The position numbers and the translations under genes were made by a program. Shown in pieces: positions 1 to 5,030 of a DNA stretch of 5,030 nucleotides. The notes under the pieces were generated by a model. That model had not been told where the DNA came from. It was given only the letters and a program-made list of their open reading frames with translations, and searched no databases. Source of the stretch: Lachnospiraceae bacterium (lineage in GTDB: Bacteria; Bacillota_A; Clostridia; Lachnospirales; Lachnospiraceae); the NCBI GenBank assembly GCA_017464045.1, contig JAFUEG010000210.1, forward strand, positions 1 to 5,030, in the 5' to 3' direction. How positions within the stretch are numbered: the first letter of the stretch is position 1; every line of letters begins with the position of its first letter.

Positions 1-190
1 AAACATCTTTAAAATCGCGCGCAAATATTTCATGTTTTAATTTTACTATACCACGAGCTGGATCCATTATCTTAACATATTTAGAAGTAATCTTATAAAT
101 AACTACATAATGTGTTAACCCATTTTGTAATTCTAAATAAGCAATTGATGGAAACATAACATGTCCACTTTTCAATTCATCAAAAGATAT
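1..190 (-). other. C39-peptidase-like C-terminal half domain within the LRR-kinase reading frame
   Basis: Residues 484-546 of the kinase frame read FDEL, then FPSIAYLELQNG, THYVVIYKI, YVKIMDPARG and VKL. This order matches the second half of the C39 cysteine-peptidase domain at the N-terminus of peptidase-containing ABC exporters ('lPaIAHv...HYVVIykI...i.DPa.G..k'), including the positions of the catalytic His (H510) and Asp (D526). The N-terminal half of that domain, with the QxDxxDCG motif and catalytic Cys, is absent; LRR sequence stands in its place. By hand count this stretch is about 27% GC over 1-180, against about 41% over 241-420. What follows beyond the edge is unknown: exporter membrane and ATPase domains, or a short tail. 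It could be a true fusion, a recombination scar or an assembly chimera. Confidence 0.62.
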
Positions 191-1639
191 TCCATCTATA
201 TAATTATAAGCATCCGTATCCGCAGAAACTATATCAAGAAAATTCAGCTTTTTCAGATTGGCAACAGGACTTCCGTCAAAGCTTCCTGCACCGTTTAGAT
301 CCAAGAACCTTAATTCACTGCAGCTGCCAAGTGCATCTATACTCTTTAACTTATTGTCATTTAGAGATACCCTCACCAGATTATCCTTATCAGAAAGGGC
401 TGATATATCCTCTATACGATTACACTGAAGATCCACATATTCAAGCTTATCCAGGTTTTCAAGCGGAGAAATGTCCTGAATTTGCTCACCTACGATAATT
501 AATTCCTCAAGATTAGGCATATTTTTAAGGTCCGACAGATCTTTCAAATCTCCTATTTTCCCATTATTTGAAAAATCTTCCTTTGCCGAATCAACCTCAT
601 AATAATTCGGATAGACCGTATCAACAATTATATATATACCGATTACCTCCTCCAAATCATCATAGGTAATGCCGCCGTATGGTTTATCTAAAGATGCCCT
701 TACAGCGTCTTCTATAATAGGATCCGAAAACTCATATACCCACTTTTTCTTTAAAAATGCCATTATACAGGTGGCAATTATGCATATAGTCACCACAGAT
801 ATCAAAAGACTAATTGCAAATACCCTTATAGTTCTTCTTTTCCTTCCTATTTCATCATATGGTTCATACAGCTTTTTTAAATCAGAAATAAGTGCATCAT
901 CATTTTTATATCGTTTGTCCGGCAGAAATTCCGTACACTTCCTTGAAATCTTTTCCAAACCTTTATCTGCATCTTTAAGCGGCTCTGCCCTGCCTTTCAG
1001 CATCCACGCAAGAACAATACCATAGGAATAAATATCAGAGCGAATATCTGTCTGCATAAAACCATACTGCTCAGGTGCAGCATATCCGGCAGTTCCGCCT
1101 ATGGTTGTATCCATCTGCTCTCCCTGCTTATATATTCTGCTTATCTCAAAGTCAATAAAAGCAATATTTCCATCATTTTTAACTATTATATTTTGTGGTT
1201 TGATATCTCTATGAATTATAGCCGGATTGAGTGAGTGAAGTTCCCGCATAGCCCGTGCCAGCCTGATAGCCAGTTCAAGCTTACTTTTATAATCCAATTT
1301 TTGCGCACGCATATACTCATCAAGAGAAATCCCCTCAACGTACTCACGCAACACTATGTAATAATTGTCATTTTTAAATTCTTCTACGAACCTTGGAATT
1401 TGTGAACTGTCTGTATCCTTTAATATGTTGAATTCATTGTTTTCATATAAAAAATTGGTATTTGAAAAGCATTTTGCCACTACTTTTTTATGACTATCCT
1501 TATCTTCTGCAAGCAGGGCATATGATTTTTCAGTATAATTAAAGCACTCTATAATTGTATATTTTTTTAAAAATTCTTTAGGAAGAGTCCTTTCAAATTC
1601 AAGGTCAAAGTTTTCTAAAAATCTTTCTTTATCTTCCAC
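1..1639 (-). CDS. Membrane Ser/Thr protein kinase with leucine-rich repeats, in-frame with a C39-peptidase-like segment (partial, 3' end outside window)
   Basis: At least 546 residues, with no stop before the window edge. Seen: a Hanks-type kinase domain at about residues 27-258, with candidate ATP lysine K56 in VVAK, the HRDIKPQN catalytic loop (D145, K147, N150), DFE at 163-165 in place of DFG, and GTAGYAAPEQ at 182-191. A basic KRR stretch and one membrane helix follow (about 270-296). Residues 300-350 are a linker; LRRs of the 'L..L..I.DIS.L..L' type span about 360-470. Residues 484-546 resemble the second half of C39 peptidases (see separate entry). Inferred topology: kinase in the cytoplasm, LRRs outside. 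The glycine-rich loop is not recognisable. The start is GTG at 1639: the frame is closed upstream by TAA at 1646-1648 and the next in-frame ATG lies inside the kinase fold. It sits 27 bp behind the HTH gene, so co-transcription is likely. Target unknown. Confidence 0.88.
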   Translation of the reverse strand, partial: MEDKERFLENFDLEFERTLPKEFLKKYTIIECFNYTEKSYALLAEDKDSHKKVVAKCFSNTNFLYENNEFNILKDTDSSQIPRFVEEFKNDNYYIVLREYVEGISLDEYMRAQKLDYKSKLELAIRLARAMRELHSLNPAIIHRDIKPQNIIVKNDGNIAFIDFEISRIYKQGEQMDTTIGGTAGYAAPEQYGFMQTDIRSDIYSYGIVLAWMLKGRAEPLKDADKGLEKISRKCTEFLPDKRYKNDDALISDLKKLYEPYDEIGRKRRTIRVFAISLLISVVTICIIATCIMAFLKKKWVYEFSDPIIEDAVRASLDKPYGGITYDDLEEVIGIYIIVDTVYPNYYEVDSAKEDFSNNGKIGDLKDLSDLKNMPNLEELIIVGEQIQDISPLENLDKLEYVDLQCNRIEDISALSDKDNLVRVSLNDNKLKSIDALGSCSELRFLDLNGAGSFDGSPVANLKKLNFLDIVSADTDAYNYIDGISFDELKSGHVMFPSIAYLELQNGLTHYVVIYKITSKYVKIMDPARGIVKLKHEIFARDFKDV

Positions 1640-1666: not shown

Positions 1667-2092
1667 CTATGTACCAAGCATAGGCAACTCATTATCGCAA
1701 AGCAAATCCTGTGTTTCCAAAACATTCATTTCATGAGATATTGCATATATAATAATTGCATCCCTTTTTATCTTTGGATAAAGCACACTTTTGCCTGCAA
1801 CATTTAGCATTCTCTGTGTCTCTTCAAGCGAGAGTCCAAACCCAAATGCAATCTGTAAAAGCTTATCTCTTGAAGGAGTCCTTGTGCCATTGAAAATCTG
1901 ATGTCCGTAGGTTCTTTCTATCTGCGCTTTATTTATAACTCTTTCAGGAACTGTATTCCTTTCTTCACAGAGTTTCATAAGGTATTCCGCTATAGTACAA
2001 TCATAAAAATCCGTCTCATGTTTATCCAAAACAGTGTTTATATTCTTTCCCTTTGTAAGCTTATTTAATAACGAGTTTGTCGAAACACCCAT
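1667..2092 (-). CDS. Xre/Cro-type helix-turn-helix protein, partner of the LRR kinase
   Basis: 141 residues. Residues about 34-95 form a Cro/C1-like five-helix HTH fold, with the recognition region around INKAQIERTYGHQIFNGTRTPSRDKL, followed by FGFGLSLEETQRML. A C-terminal extension (about 96-141) carries LYPKIKRDAIIIYAI and ends ETQDLLCDNELP. The gene at 3604-4044 encodes a paralog sharing IERTY, RD..L, GLSLEET/GLKLEET, the LY.K.KRD.IIIY core and the ELP ending. The ATG at 2092 has a strong ribosome binding site, GAAGGAG at 2100-2106, 7 bases upstream. It is the first gene of an apparent two-gene operon with the kinase. The role as a DNA-binding regulator comes from the fold; regulation of its own promoter or modification by the adjacent kinase is inferred. 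No membrane segment or enzyme motif is visible. Confidence 0.9.
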   Translation of the reverse strand: MGVSTNSLLNKLTKGKNINTVLDKHETDFYDCTIAEYLMKLCEERNTVPERVINKAQIERTYGHQIFNGTRTPSRDKLLQIAFGFGLSLEETQRMLNVAGKSVLYPKIKRDAIIIYAISHEMNVLETQDLLCDNELPMLGT

Positions 2093-2298: not shown

Positions 2299-3513
2299 TC
2301 ATACAAGCACAACAAGAATCGATACAATTAATGCTGTAATCAATATGAGCAAAATATCAATTATTACTATACCCACTATTCTTTTTATCCCTGATAGTCT
2401 TTCAAGCCATTTAATCTTATTTTGGCAATTCAGATAATTACATGAGAATAAAAAGGCTGCAAAAAGTGCAAGGGAAAAGCCTATTCTGTTTGCATTTAAT
2501 TCAAAAGCTTTATTGTCACTTATATAGTTATCAAGTTTATATGTTATCGTGCAATACAATAAAAATGCATATATAAAAACACCCACCAGCATATGAAGCG
2601 GATTTTTACTTCTAAATCCTGGAAGAGCATATGATTTTATATTTAATTTAGCATCATGTGAATTACTTATATCACCATTTCGTGATTCATATATGTCCTT
2701 ATCTTTATTTTTAACATTTAATTTATCAACTATAAATTTTCTTAATTCATCCGCATTTTGAAATCTGTCATCAGGGCTTAATTTTGTAGCTTTATCAACC
2801 ATCTCCGCTAATCGATCAGATTTTATTTCGCATTTATCCATTATATATTTTACAGTTGCACCAAGTCCATAGATGTCCGTTCTGGCATCACTTTCACAAA
2901 ATCCAAATTGTTCCGGTGCCGCAAATCCGGCGGTACCCATAATAACAGTATCCTTGCTTTTAACTCCGGTATAGTTCCTTGAAATATTAAAATCTATCAG
3001 ATACGTTTTACCGATATCACTTAAAATAATATTATCCGGTTTAATATCCCTATGTATGACCGGCGGATTGAGATTATGCAGCTTTTCCAATATATCAGTA
3101 AGTTTGATAATAATACTGACAAGTTTTTCTTCGGTCACATCATTTTTCTCAATATATTCCGTCAAAGTGACTCCCTTTATGTATTCTTCTATTATAACCA
3201 GGCTATCATCTTTATCCGTATTCCCTTTATCCGAATTATCTCTATCCGAGTTTTCTTTATCCGAATTCAAAGGATATATCTCATATACCTGCGGGACACC
3301 GTTTATATTCATATTTTTTAATGTCACATATATGTTTTCATCAAACCTTTTTAGCTGCTTTAAAATGTATTTTCTTTTATTCAGTTTATCCAAAACAATA
3401 TATGAATTTCCCTGACCGGTTAGATTTTCCATATACTCATATGTATTGGAAATGTAATCATCCAACCATAAATCAGGCAGATTATTATCTGTTTTTTCGT
3501 ACTTTTCAGGCAT
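2299..3513 (-). CDS. Membrane Ser/Thr protein kinase with three C-terminal transmembrane helices
   Basis: 404 residues. The Hanks-type kinase domain spans about residues 27-265: a glycine-containing loop (TGQGNSY, 32-38), ATP lysine K52 in ILK, hinge IIEEY (107-111), HRDIKPDN (D156, K158, N161), DFN at 174-176 instead of DFG, and GTAGFAAPEQFGF from 193. A low-complexity N/S/D/K stretch (83-104) sits in the loop before the hinge strand. After a polar linker come three hydrophobic segments at about 305-325, 344-361 and 378-403, ending almost at the C-terminus with no sizeable outer domain. The ATG at 3513 has AAAGGA upstream (TGCCTG follows the ATG). It is divergent from the HTH gene at 3604 across 90 bp. 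It resembles the LRR kinase in its catalytic and activation motifs, so I take them as homologs with different sensor parts. Signal and substrate are unknown. Confidence 0.93.
   Translation of the reverse strand: MPEKYEKTDNNLPDLWLDDYISNTYEYMENLTGQGNSYIVLDKLNKRKYILKQLKRFDENIYVTLKNMNINGVPQVYEIYPLNSDKENSDRDNSDKGNTDKDDSLVIIEEYIKGVTLTEYIEKNDVTEEKLVSIIIKLTDILEKLHNLNPPVIHRDIKPDNIILSDIGKTYLIDFNISRNYTGVKSKDTVIMGTAGFAAPEQFGFCESDARTDIYGLGATVKYIMDKCEIKSDRLAEMVDKATKLSPDDRFQNADELRKFIVDKLNVKNKDKDIYESRNGDISNSHDAKLNIKSYALPGFRSKNPLHMLVGVFIYAFLLYCTITYKLDNYISDNKAFELNANRIGFSLALFAAFLFSCNYLNCQNKIKWLERLSGIKRIVGIVIIDILLILITALIVSILVVLV
3210..3269 (-). repeat. Four in-frame 15-bp tandem repeats within the kinase gene
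   Basis: Four consecutive 15-bp units (3210-3224, 3225-3239, 3240-3254, 3255-3269) share the plus-strand core CTTTATCCG with small changes (CTCTATCCG in the third). They encode degenerate pentapeptides of the form N-S/T-D-K/R-x, giving a flexible charged loop at kinase residues 83-104. Because each unit is a multiple of three, a change in copy number would keep the frame, so length variation between strains is plausible. Confidence 0.85.
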
Positions 3514-3575: not shown

Positions 3576-3604
3576 ATTATAACACTACGGAGGAATTACA
3601 GCAA
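3576..3604 (-). promoter_or_regulatory. Candidate promoter for the second kinase gene, overlapping the HTH gene start
   Basis: On the minus strand TTGCTG (3599-3604), a 17-base spacer and a perfect TATAAT (3576-3581) give a good sigma-A-type match. Its -35 touches the ATG of the divergent HTH gene, and its spacer contains that gene's ribosome binding site. Transcription would start near 3569, within the -10 of the opposing promoter, leaving a leader of about 55 bases for the kinase message. Confidence 0.45.
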
Positions 3605-4044
3605 TGAAAGATGTTAATAATAAAAAGACTGTAGAGCTTCTTGAAATCTTAAATCAGGCTGAAAATTCAGAGGCCTTGAAAAAATATTTAGAGGACACCG
3701 GTGATTACAAATCACTTAATTTTACTGATTATTTTTATGAGCTTTTATCCAAAAAAGGCATAAGTAAATCTGATATGGTAACCCGCTCCGGCATAGAAAG
3801 AACATATCTTTATCATATACTTAGCGGTGACAGGGCTCCGGGCAGAGATAATGCCCTGCGTCTTTGTATAGGAGCAGGGCTTAAGCTTGAAGAAACCATG
3901 CGCTGTCTTGAACTTTTATCAGTAGGTATTCTTTATGCAAAAAACAAGCGCGATTCCATAATCATTTATTCAATTAATCGTGGATTATCCGTTGATGAAA
4001 CCAACTCTCTTCTTTATGAACATGATGAGCTTCCACTAAAGTAA
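3604..4044 (+). CDS. Xre/Cro-type helix-turn-helix protein, paralog of the 1667-2092 product
   Basis: 146 residues. An N-terminal helical stretch (about 1-38) precedes a Cro/C1-like HTH at about 39-103, with the recognition region SDMVTRSGIERTYLYHILSG and then RAPGRDNALRLCIGAGLKLEET. The C-terminal extension contains LYAKNKRDSIIIYSI and DETNSLLYEHDELP, matching the extension of the other HTH protein. The ATG at 3604 follows GGAGG by 10 bases. The gene is divergent from the three-helix kinase and convergent with the repeat protein, whose stop lies 7 bases beyond its own. The fold supports DNA binding; the target is unknown. Placement suggests autoregulation and control of the divergent kinase promoter, which is inference. 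The pairing of each HTH with a kinase makes a functional partnership likely. Confidence 0.91.
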   Translation: MKDVNNKKTVELLEILNQAENSEALKKYLEDTGDYKSLNFTDYFYELLSKKGISKSDMVTRSGIERTYLYHILSGDRAPGRDNALRLCIGAGLKLEETMRCLELLSVGILYAKNKRDSIIIYSINRGLSVDETNSLLYEHDELPLK

Positions 4045-4057
4045 ATATGTTTTACTT
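4039..4057. terminator. Weak inverted repeat across two convergent stop codons
   Basis: AAGTAAA (4039-4045) and TTTACTT (4051-4057) form a 7-bp stem around a 5-base loop, covering both the TAA of the plus-strand HTH gene and the TAA of the minus-strand repeat protein. A shared bidirectional terminator would fit the convergent layout with only 7 bases between stops. The stem has just one GC pair and no long flanking T-run, so this is tentative. Confidence 0.25.
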
Positions 4058-4954
4058 GGTTGAAAAGCTTATCGGTTCAGATGTTTCTATTCTGCTATAG
4101 CTGTCCGCATCAATTATCTTAAATACCAGTTCTATATCATCGACGCTTGTAATATTATTGTCCTCAAGGTCGCTTGACAAAATTGTTATCTCATCTATAG
4201 CCTTCTTACCATCATATACATTTGCTGAAAAATAAGGAGTAACCATAAATCCGTTTATCGACATATCATCGCACTGAACTATAACATTTTGTCCGCTTGT
4301 ATTTTCTATATAAAGTAAAACTCCCGCTCCCCAGAAGGATTTTTCATCAACATACTTTCCGACAATCCTTATACCATTGCTGTTAAACAGCTCCTGACCC
4401 GCATCATTTGGGGTAGTGTCGATTTCATTTATTGCAGAGGTTTCTATCGTCACGCAATCAAAATCCTCTATAGTCATATATGTATCCGGATCAAAGGTAT
4501 GAAAATATATTTCCACCTTTCCAACATTATCTATACCGGCAGCCTCAAGCTCGGAGCTTGAAAGATACATCATCTCATTTGACTTTTTACCGGCAGCAAC
4601 TGTCGATGTAAATAAATCAAATATCATATAATCATTTACGATAAGTGCTGTACATCCAAGACCGATTGACTTATCCGAATCATTTTCTATCAAAAGATTG
4701 ATTCCGTCACCCCATATACTATCTGTCTTATATTCGGTAGCGGTAACCTTAAGTCCGTCCTTTTCAAAAAGAAGCTGTTCCTCAATCGTTACCTTTTCTG
4801 ATGTCTGTCCGGTTTTATCAGAAGCTTCTTCGTTATTATCAGAATCATTATTATTTTCCTTATCAGATGTATCCCCTGCCACTATATCCTTTTTTCCTGA
4901 ATCTTCTTTATCTTTTTTTCCTGCCGATGCTATGGCACCTAATACAATAATCAC
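4052..4954 (-). CDS. Membrane-anchored or secreted protein with two tandem ~110-residue repeats; 5' end disrupted by TAA
   Basis: 300 residues if read from GTG at 4954, but the natural N-terminus lies further upstream. The frame continues to ATG at 4996, whose second codon is TAA, then KKKKKTWLVVLIVIIVLGAIASAG: a basic region plus membrane helix or signal peptide, with no lipobox cysteine. Numbered from the GTG, residues 12-56 are a polar Lys/Asp/Ser/Asn linker. Residues about 62-171 and 189-298 are tandem copies sharing 'F...G(L/I)', 'WG.G..L.IEN', a hydrophobic core with 'N(D/G)(Y/F)M', 'A.GKK', 'SS(D/E)LE' and 'I..V..IE..F...D.D(T/S)Y..IE'. I recall similar repeat proteins from Lachnospiraceae but know no function; a beta-rich outer domain is likely. 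Starting at GTG would cut the charged region and most of the helix, so I think this is a nonsense-mutated gene, a sequence error or an unusual start. Convergent with the HTH gene. Confidence 0.8.
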   Translation of the reverse strand: MIIVLGAIASAGKKDKEDSGKKDIVAGDTSDKENNNDSDNNEEASDKTGQTSEKVTIEEQLLFEKDGLKVTATEYKTDSIWGDGINLLIENDSDKSIGLGCTALIVNDYMIFDLFTSTVAAGKKSNEMMYLSSSELEAAGIDNVGKVEIYFHTFDPDTYMTIEDFDCVTIETSAINEIDTTPNDAGQELFNSNGIRIVGKYVDEKSFWGAGVLLYIENTSGQNVIVQCDDMSINGFMVTPYFSANVYDGKKAIDEITILSSDLEDNNITSVDDIELVFKIIDADSYSRIETSEPISFSTK

Positions 4955-4990
4955 AATCAGTACGACAAGCCATGTTTTTTTCTTCTTTTT

Positions 4991-5012
4991 TTACATAATA
5001 AAATCCCTCTCT
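4991..5012 (-). promoter_or_regulatory. Strong ribosome binding site followed by ATG-TAA start-stop pair
   Basis: On the minus strand AGAGAGGG (5005-5012) lies 8 bases before ATG (4994-4996), the expected start of the repeat protein. The very next codon is TAA (4991-4993), and the frame then continues as five lysines and a membrane helix. The frame is also open upstream of the ATG to the window edge (about 11 codons), so TAA could instead end another reading frame, but the spacing and the lysine-rich start favour a broken or special start. The promoter is outside the window. Confidence 0.7.
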
Positions 5013-5030
5013 TTCGATATATTTTTATAA

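Follow-up and report, generated by a model that had tools for sequence, protein, structure and literature searches.

An Apparent Kinase–LRR–C39 Peptidase Fusion at the End of a Lachnospiraceae Contig Is Probably an Assembly Chimera

Introduction

The closest described systems for the protein considered here are the kinase-LRR proteins of the Lachnospiraceae and the ABC exporters that carry a peptidase C39 domain (PF03412). In the passages of PMC6363468 that deal with C39 domains, helix 1 of LahT is described as holding the Cys and bordering the substrate groove, and the C39-like domain (CLD) of HlyB is described as related to C39 and without the Cys.

In this report, we analyze a 5,030-nucleotide stretch of DNA from a Lachnospiraceae bacterium (GenBank assembly GCA_017464045.1, contig JAFUEG010000210.1), hereafter the window. 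A preliminary description had noted a reading frame in which a kinase with LRRs passes into half of a C39 domain. It proposed a genuine kinase-LRR-C39 architecture, perhaps with a Cys-less, substrate-binding C39-like domain, and named a recombination scar or an assembly chimera as the alternative. Our comparison of the two parts with their relatives suggests, with a probability of roughly 87%, that the left end of the window is an assembly chimera formed at a short shared stretch.

Results

Domains of the Window Protein

The frame runs from position 1639 to position 2 on the minus strand, begins with GTG, encodes 546 residues with zero internal stops, and is open at the left edge of the window. 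The best Pfam stretch for Pkinase covers residues 43–234 (106.3 bits), and those for LRR_4 and LRR_8 cover residues 375–416 and 398–450, respectively; a membrane helix between the kinase and the LRRs was judged by eye only. Peptidase_C39 was matched at residues 487–545, corresponding to profile positions 69–123 of 133, with 40.9 bits against a cut-off of 22. When the last 79 residues were scored alone, the match rose to 45.2 bits over profile positions 68–123 (cut-off 22), and the assignment is thus well above chance. The NCBIfam model for a peptidase-domain ABC transporter aligned at its positions 63–124 with residues 485–546, giving 33.9 bits, far under the whole-protein cut-off of 500 for that model. 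The putative catalytic residues His510 and Asp526 lie inside the PF03412 match and are 16 residues apart, a spacing equal to that of His101 and Asp117 in the account of LahT in PMC6363468. No Cys is present in residues 491–546, and the Cys-bearing N-terminal half of C39 is absent, the profile match starting at position 68. The preliminary description was therefore correct about the open frame, the C39 character of residues 484–546, the presence of the His and Asp, and the missing Cys half. The membrane and ATPase parts of an exporter, if any, would lie outside the window, past residue 546. The features of the frame are collected in Table 1.

Table 1. Features of the Kinase-LRR-C39 Reading Frame
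Feature	Window positions	Strand	Evidence
Lachnospiraceae-type Ser/Thr kinase-LRR gene, residues 1–490, truncated by the join	170..1639	-	Identity to P0001; Pkinase and LRR_4/LRR_8; DNA alignment with L001
Join zone, word ISFDELK	170..190	-	Common to kinase P0001 (484–490) and exporter P0135 (68–74)
Foreign tip, second half of an exporter C39 domain, no Cys half	2..169	-	PF03412, 45.2 bits; identity to exporters; relatives' genomes without PF03412

The Kinase-LRR Parent

The window protein was compared with about 5.8 billion clustered proteins, and the best 120 of 5957 homologues under the threshold were examined. The best match was P0001, a protein of 583 residues whose longest contig has 10,607 bases. 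Up to the join, P0001 and the window protein are identical at 489 of 490 residues; over residues 491–546, they agree at only 4 of 56 positions. Contrary to what had been supposed, the kinase-LRR part extends beyond residue 470: the identity to P0001 continues through residue 490 (window 170), and the switch falls at residues 484–490 (window 190–170). Past the join, P0001 keeps going in what is, by eye, LRR-like sequence, as do P0002–P0006, and the window protein is without the LRR-like C-terminus that P0001 carries to about residue 583. P0001 represents a cluster of 5 member sequences, another of which could conceivably share the join. The sole difference before the join is at residue 425 (window 365–367, minus strand), which is Ser (TCT) in the window and Cys in P0001; among the relatives, this residue is Cys in P0002–P0004 and P0006 and Ser in P0005.

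At the DNA level, the window aligned with L001, a locus in a Lachnospiraceae metagenome-assembled genome (MAG), with 92.5% identity over 2028 columns, and the alignment stops at window position 169. A tblastn match carried L001 as far as residue 522 of the window protein, but L001 reads LRR-like there and is without HYVV or MDPA. Among those of the 53 tblastn loci that match the kinase part, L001 extends furthest past the join, followed by L010 and L018 (to residue 494), and all others reach residue 492 at most. The five closest loci (L001–L005) are all titled as Lachnospiraceae MAGs. The kinase of L006, on a MAG contig titled Candidatus Gastranaerophilales and perhaps mis-binned, is 46% identical to that of the window; unlike L006, the other loci down to L018 are titled Lachnospiraceae, Clostridiales, Butyrivibrio, or plain "bacterium".

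The C39 Tip and Its Exporter Parent

Residues 466–546 were used alone as a query, and 13 proteins were retrieved: 11 were ABC exporters carrying PF03412, and the other two were the kinase-LRR proteins P0001 and P0006, each with an LRR-like end. The six best exporters, in which C39, ABC membrane, and ATPase domains are present, are 79–83% identical to the window over 63 residues (484–546). These residues align in register with exporter residues 68–130, with at most 52 of 63 identical (P0123 and P0125). For closer comparison, 40 exporters were taken (P0121–P0126 and P0132–P0165, of which P0164 is without a C39 domain; P0127–P0131 and P0166–P0245 were left out). Before the join, the ten closest of these agree with the window at only 3–5 of 63 positions, and the Cys motif DCGAAC is carried by all of the 16 closest. 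Low GC content was considered as a sign of the foreign tip and was rejected: positions 1–165 have 27% GC versus 34% for the rest, and the GC content is equally low in 13% of window stretches of that size.

Named relatives in the wider exporter family, from the search with P0123, were "Bacilli bacterium" (67%), "Firmicutes bacterium" (63%), and Candidatus Coprovivens (43%), the last of which belongs to the class Bacilli. L052 (54% identity across 46 residues) and L053 (49% across 50), both titled Flavobacteriaceae, are the two tblastn loci whose match is confined to the tip. Judged from the named exporter relatives, the donor is probably of the Bacilli type. The class is only probable because a weaker exporter match, P0129, carries the name Clostridiales (61% across 54% of the query), and because C39 relatives of the P0124 domain occur in 31 of 398 genomes from the phylum of genome G001, which is that of the kinase host (E 1e-12; identity at most 48%, best-scoring 44%). 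DNA of the exporter parent itself was not found among these 398 genomes using the P0124 C39 domain as the query. P0123 was found in 0 of 24 genomes from the order of genome G258 at E 1e-120, a search that lacked a positive control and shows little. In viral contigs, P0124 gave 23 pattern matches with no relative among them, and window positions 1–400 had no match in plasmids and phages.

The five genomes that hold the closest kinase relatives (L001–L005) gave no PF03412 match (0 of 5; MAGs may be incomplete), in a search for which 8 of 14 control genomes were positive. With a whole exporter as the query, by contrast, matches were obtained in all five genomes (best E value 1.4e-36). The matches listed are 22–34% identical and begin at query residue 156 or later, apart from one in G002 that begins at residue 93 and whose frame contains two stops. 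They resemble what general ABC transporters would give.

The Join at ISFDELK

The word ISFDELK occupies residues 484–490 of P0001 and residues 68–74 of exporter P0135, in register, and is the longest word that P0001 has in common with any of the 40 compared exporters. Only P0145 besides P0135 shares a word of at least six residues with P0001, at the same place; the longest common word was four residues for 24 of the 40 exporters and five residues for 14. By itself, a common word of 7 residues is no rarity: shuffled versions of P0001 had one in common with P0135 in 5 of 2000 trials, and 16 of 300 trials gave one for at least one of the 40 exporters. What counts is that ISFDELK coincides exactly with the switch and is in register in both proteins. 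Because the two genes read ISFDELK in one common frame, the join leaves the reading frame open. The foreign tip that follows measures about 170 bases and extends to the window's edge, a length that would correspond to about one short read plus a k-mer.

Short shared sequences can guide recombination in cells too, and a natural origin has to be weighed. A fragment of an exporter gene from another bacterium might have recombined into the kinase gene at the short shared sequence in one strain, with the kinase gene left broken or altered. The open frame without a stop is consistent with such an event, as is a shared sequence able to guide cellular recombination, and the C39 relatives in 31 of 398 same-phylum genomes would make the donor possibly not a distant one. 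Against it, PF03412 was found in 0 of the 5 relative genomes, no second example was met among the proteins examined from the kinase, tip, and P0123 searches or among the 53 loci, and the foreign part runs to the edge of the window with no return into Lachnospiraceae sequence seen. We regard natural recombination as unlikely.

Search for a Second Kinase–C39 Fusion

Neither PF03412 (precomputed domains) nor the motifs MDPAKG, MDPARG, and HYVV were found in the best 120 of the 5957 kinase homologues, and no protein joining a kinase to C39 was present among the 13 proteins of the tip search. The kinase motif HRDIKP occurs in 0 of the 125 retrieved exporters, and a kinase or LRR domain is absent from the best 120 of 272 exporter relatives of P0123. 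The same junction was met neither among the 53 tblastn loci nor among the proteins examined from the kinase, tip, and P0123 searches.

These results bear on a functional receptor kinase, the LRR part of which would end in a Cys-less C39-like substrate-binding domain as in the hemolysin exporters. The open frame, the C39 score well above the cut-off, and the presence of the His and Asp would all suit such a protein, but the match to the C39 profile starts only at position 68 of 133 and covers no more than its second half. The helix-1 part, where LahT has the Cys and a border of the substrate groove, is therefore missing, and the remainder is not a whole C39-like domain. Moreover, no retrieved homologue is a C39-tipped kinase, and the near-identical P0001 has LRR-like sequence in place of the C39 tip. 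A functional fusion of this kind is very improbable.

The kinase homologue and tip searches admit candidates of at most 1.75 times the query length (about 955 residues), so that a kinase fused to a complete exporter, at about 1100 residues, is outside the reach of both. The search with the 683-residue exporter P0123 could reach such fusions, and the longest of the 125 retrieved exporters has 961 residues. A real in-frame fusion in one Lachnospiraceae strain, in which the exporter C39 half replaces the LRR end of the receptor kinase and a whole exporter possibly follows, would give a protein of about 1100 residues with kinase, LRR, and ABC exporter parts. We give this reading next to no weight.

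Neighboring Genes

The window encodes two small HTH-like proteins, at 1667–2092 (minus strand) and 3604–4044 (plus strand), which are identical at 43 of 112 positions and have weak HTH matches, under the Pfam cut-offs. Each adjoins a Ser/Thr kinase, the first that at 2–1639 and the second that at 2299–3513 (both minus strand); the kinases are identical at 63 of 160 positions. Two similar HTH-like genes, each beside a similar kinase, thus form a duplicated HTH-kinase pair, and the gene order of the pairs is the same in L002 and L004. The names that PADLOC gave to both kinases (mad6, PD-T4-6, and others) were set aside, as the best stretches, at residues 22–287 and 25–274 (25 families each, the best of 32 and 35), map to the kinase region and just after it.

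In L001, at 9402–9447, the match to window 4986–5030 (the last 45 bases) directly adjoins the match to window 2193. About 2.8 kb, holding the second HTH-kinase pair and a gene of 300 codons (4052–4954, minus strand), is absent from L001 and kept in L002 and L004; this gap reflects either a deletion or a wrong join in L001. Window 4991–4996 (minus strand) holds an ATG that shares the frame of the 300-residue gene and, immediately after it, TAA; the relatives in L002 and L004 have 312 residues and a lysine-rich start.

Discussion

Near protein-level relatives of both parents were found, P0001 and P0135 share a word in register, and no second example of the fusion appeared in the searches made. 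Most likely, the apparent kinase-protease fusion arose when two genes, ordinary in themselves and from different bacteria, were misjoined at a short stretch common to both, and it is probably not a new architecture. In the proposed course of events, the starting parent would be a Lachnospiraceae contig with an ordinary kinase-LRR gene, which would have been extended wrongly at the short stretch coding for ISFDELK. The extension would enter the C39-coding part of an ABC exporter gene, the donor probably being one of the Bacilli present in the same sample, and the shared stretch, in the same frame in both genes, would keep the frame open. We infer that the assembler rather than a cell made the join, as we do the class of the donor and its presence in the same sample.

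At a short common stretch about 170 bases from the edge, two genes meet that are unrelated and that are normal in their respective relatives, which fits a short-read interspecies misjoin. The closest named exporter relatives are Bacilli or Firmicutes, versus Lachnospiraceae for the five closest kinase loci, which also argues for an assembly chimera. In the portion of PMC9795473 concerned with chimeric contigs, these are suggested above all where a sample contains species that are closely related, whereas the two parents of the window look distant, which speaks against this explanation.

The preliminary description thus stands in its C39 assignment, in the missing Cys half, and in its alternative of a recombination scar or an assembly chimera, which the evidence favors. 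The proposed new architecture is not supported: 0 of the 120 homologues examined have C39, P0001 ends LRR-like, HRDIKP is absent from the 125 exporters, and no relative with the same junction was found among those homologues or the 53 loci. Nor is the Cys-less substrate-binding domain, as DCGAAC in all 16 of the closest exporters makes it appear that the Cys half was simply dropped by the join.

The assembly-chimera reading likely removes a false new architecture. A short in-frame word shared at a misjoin can give an open and plausible fusion frame, and profile searches alone would have passed the window as a fusion; the telling evidence is the near-identical homologue with a normal end.

The CLD of HlyB retains the whole fold, whereas half of the C39 profile is unmatched in the window, as judged by the profile alignment. 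The Ser/Thr kinase-LRR proteins of the Lachnospiraceae (P0001 and relatives, about 580 residues) have the same kinase followed by LRRs, and residues 1–490 match P0001 at all positions but one; P0001–P0006 carry about 90 further LRR-like residues that the window protein is without. The PCAT/AMS exporters (peptidase C39, PF03412, about 685 residues), probably those of the Bacilli type, are alike over window residues 484–546, with the His and Asp in place. In the window protein, kinase sequence stands in place of the Cys half of the domain.
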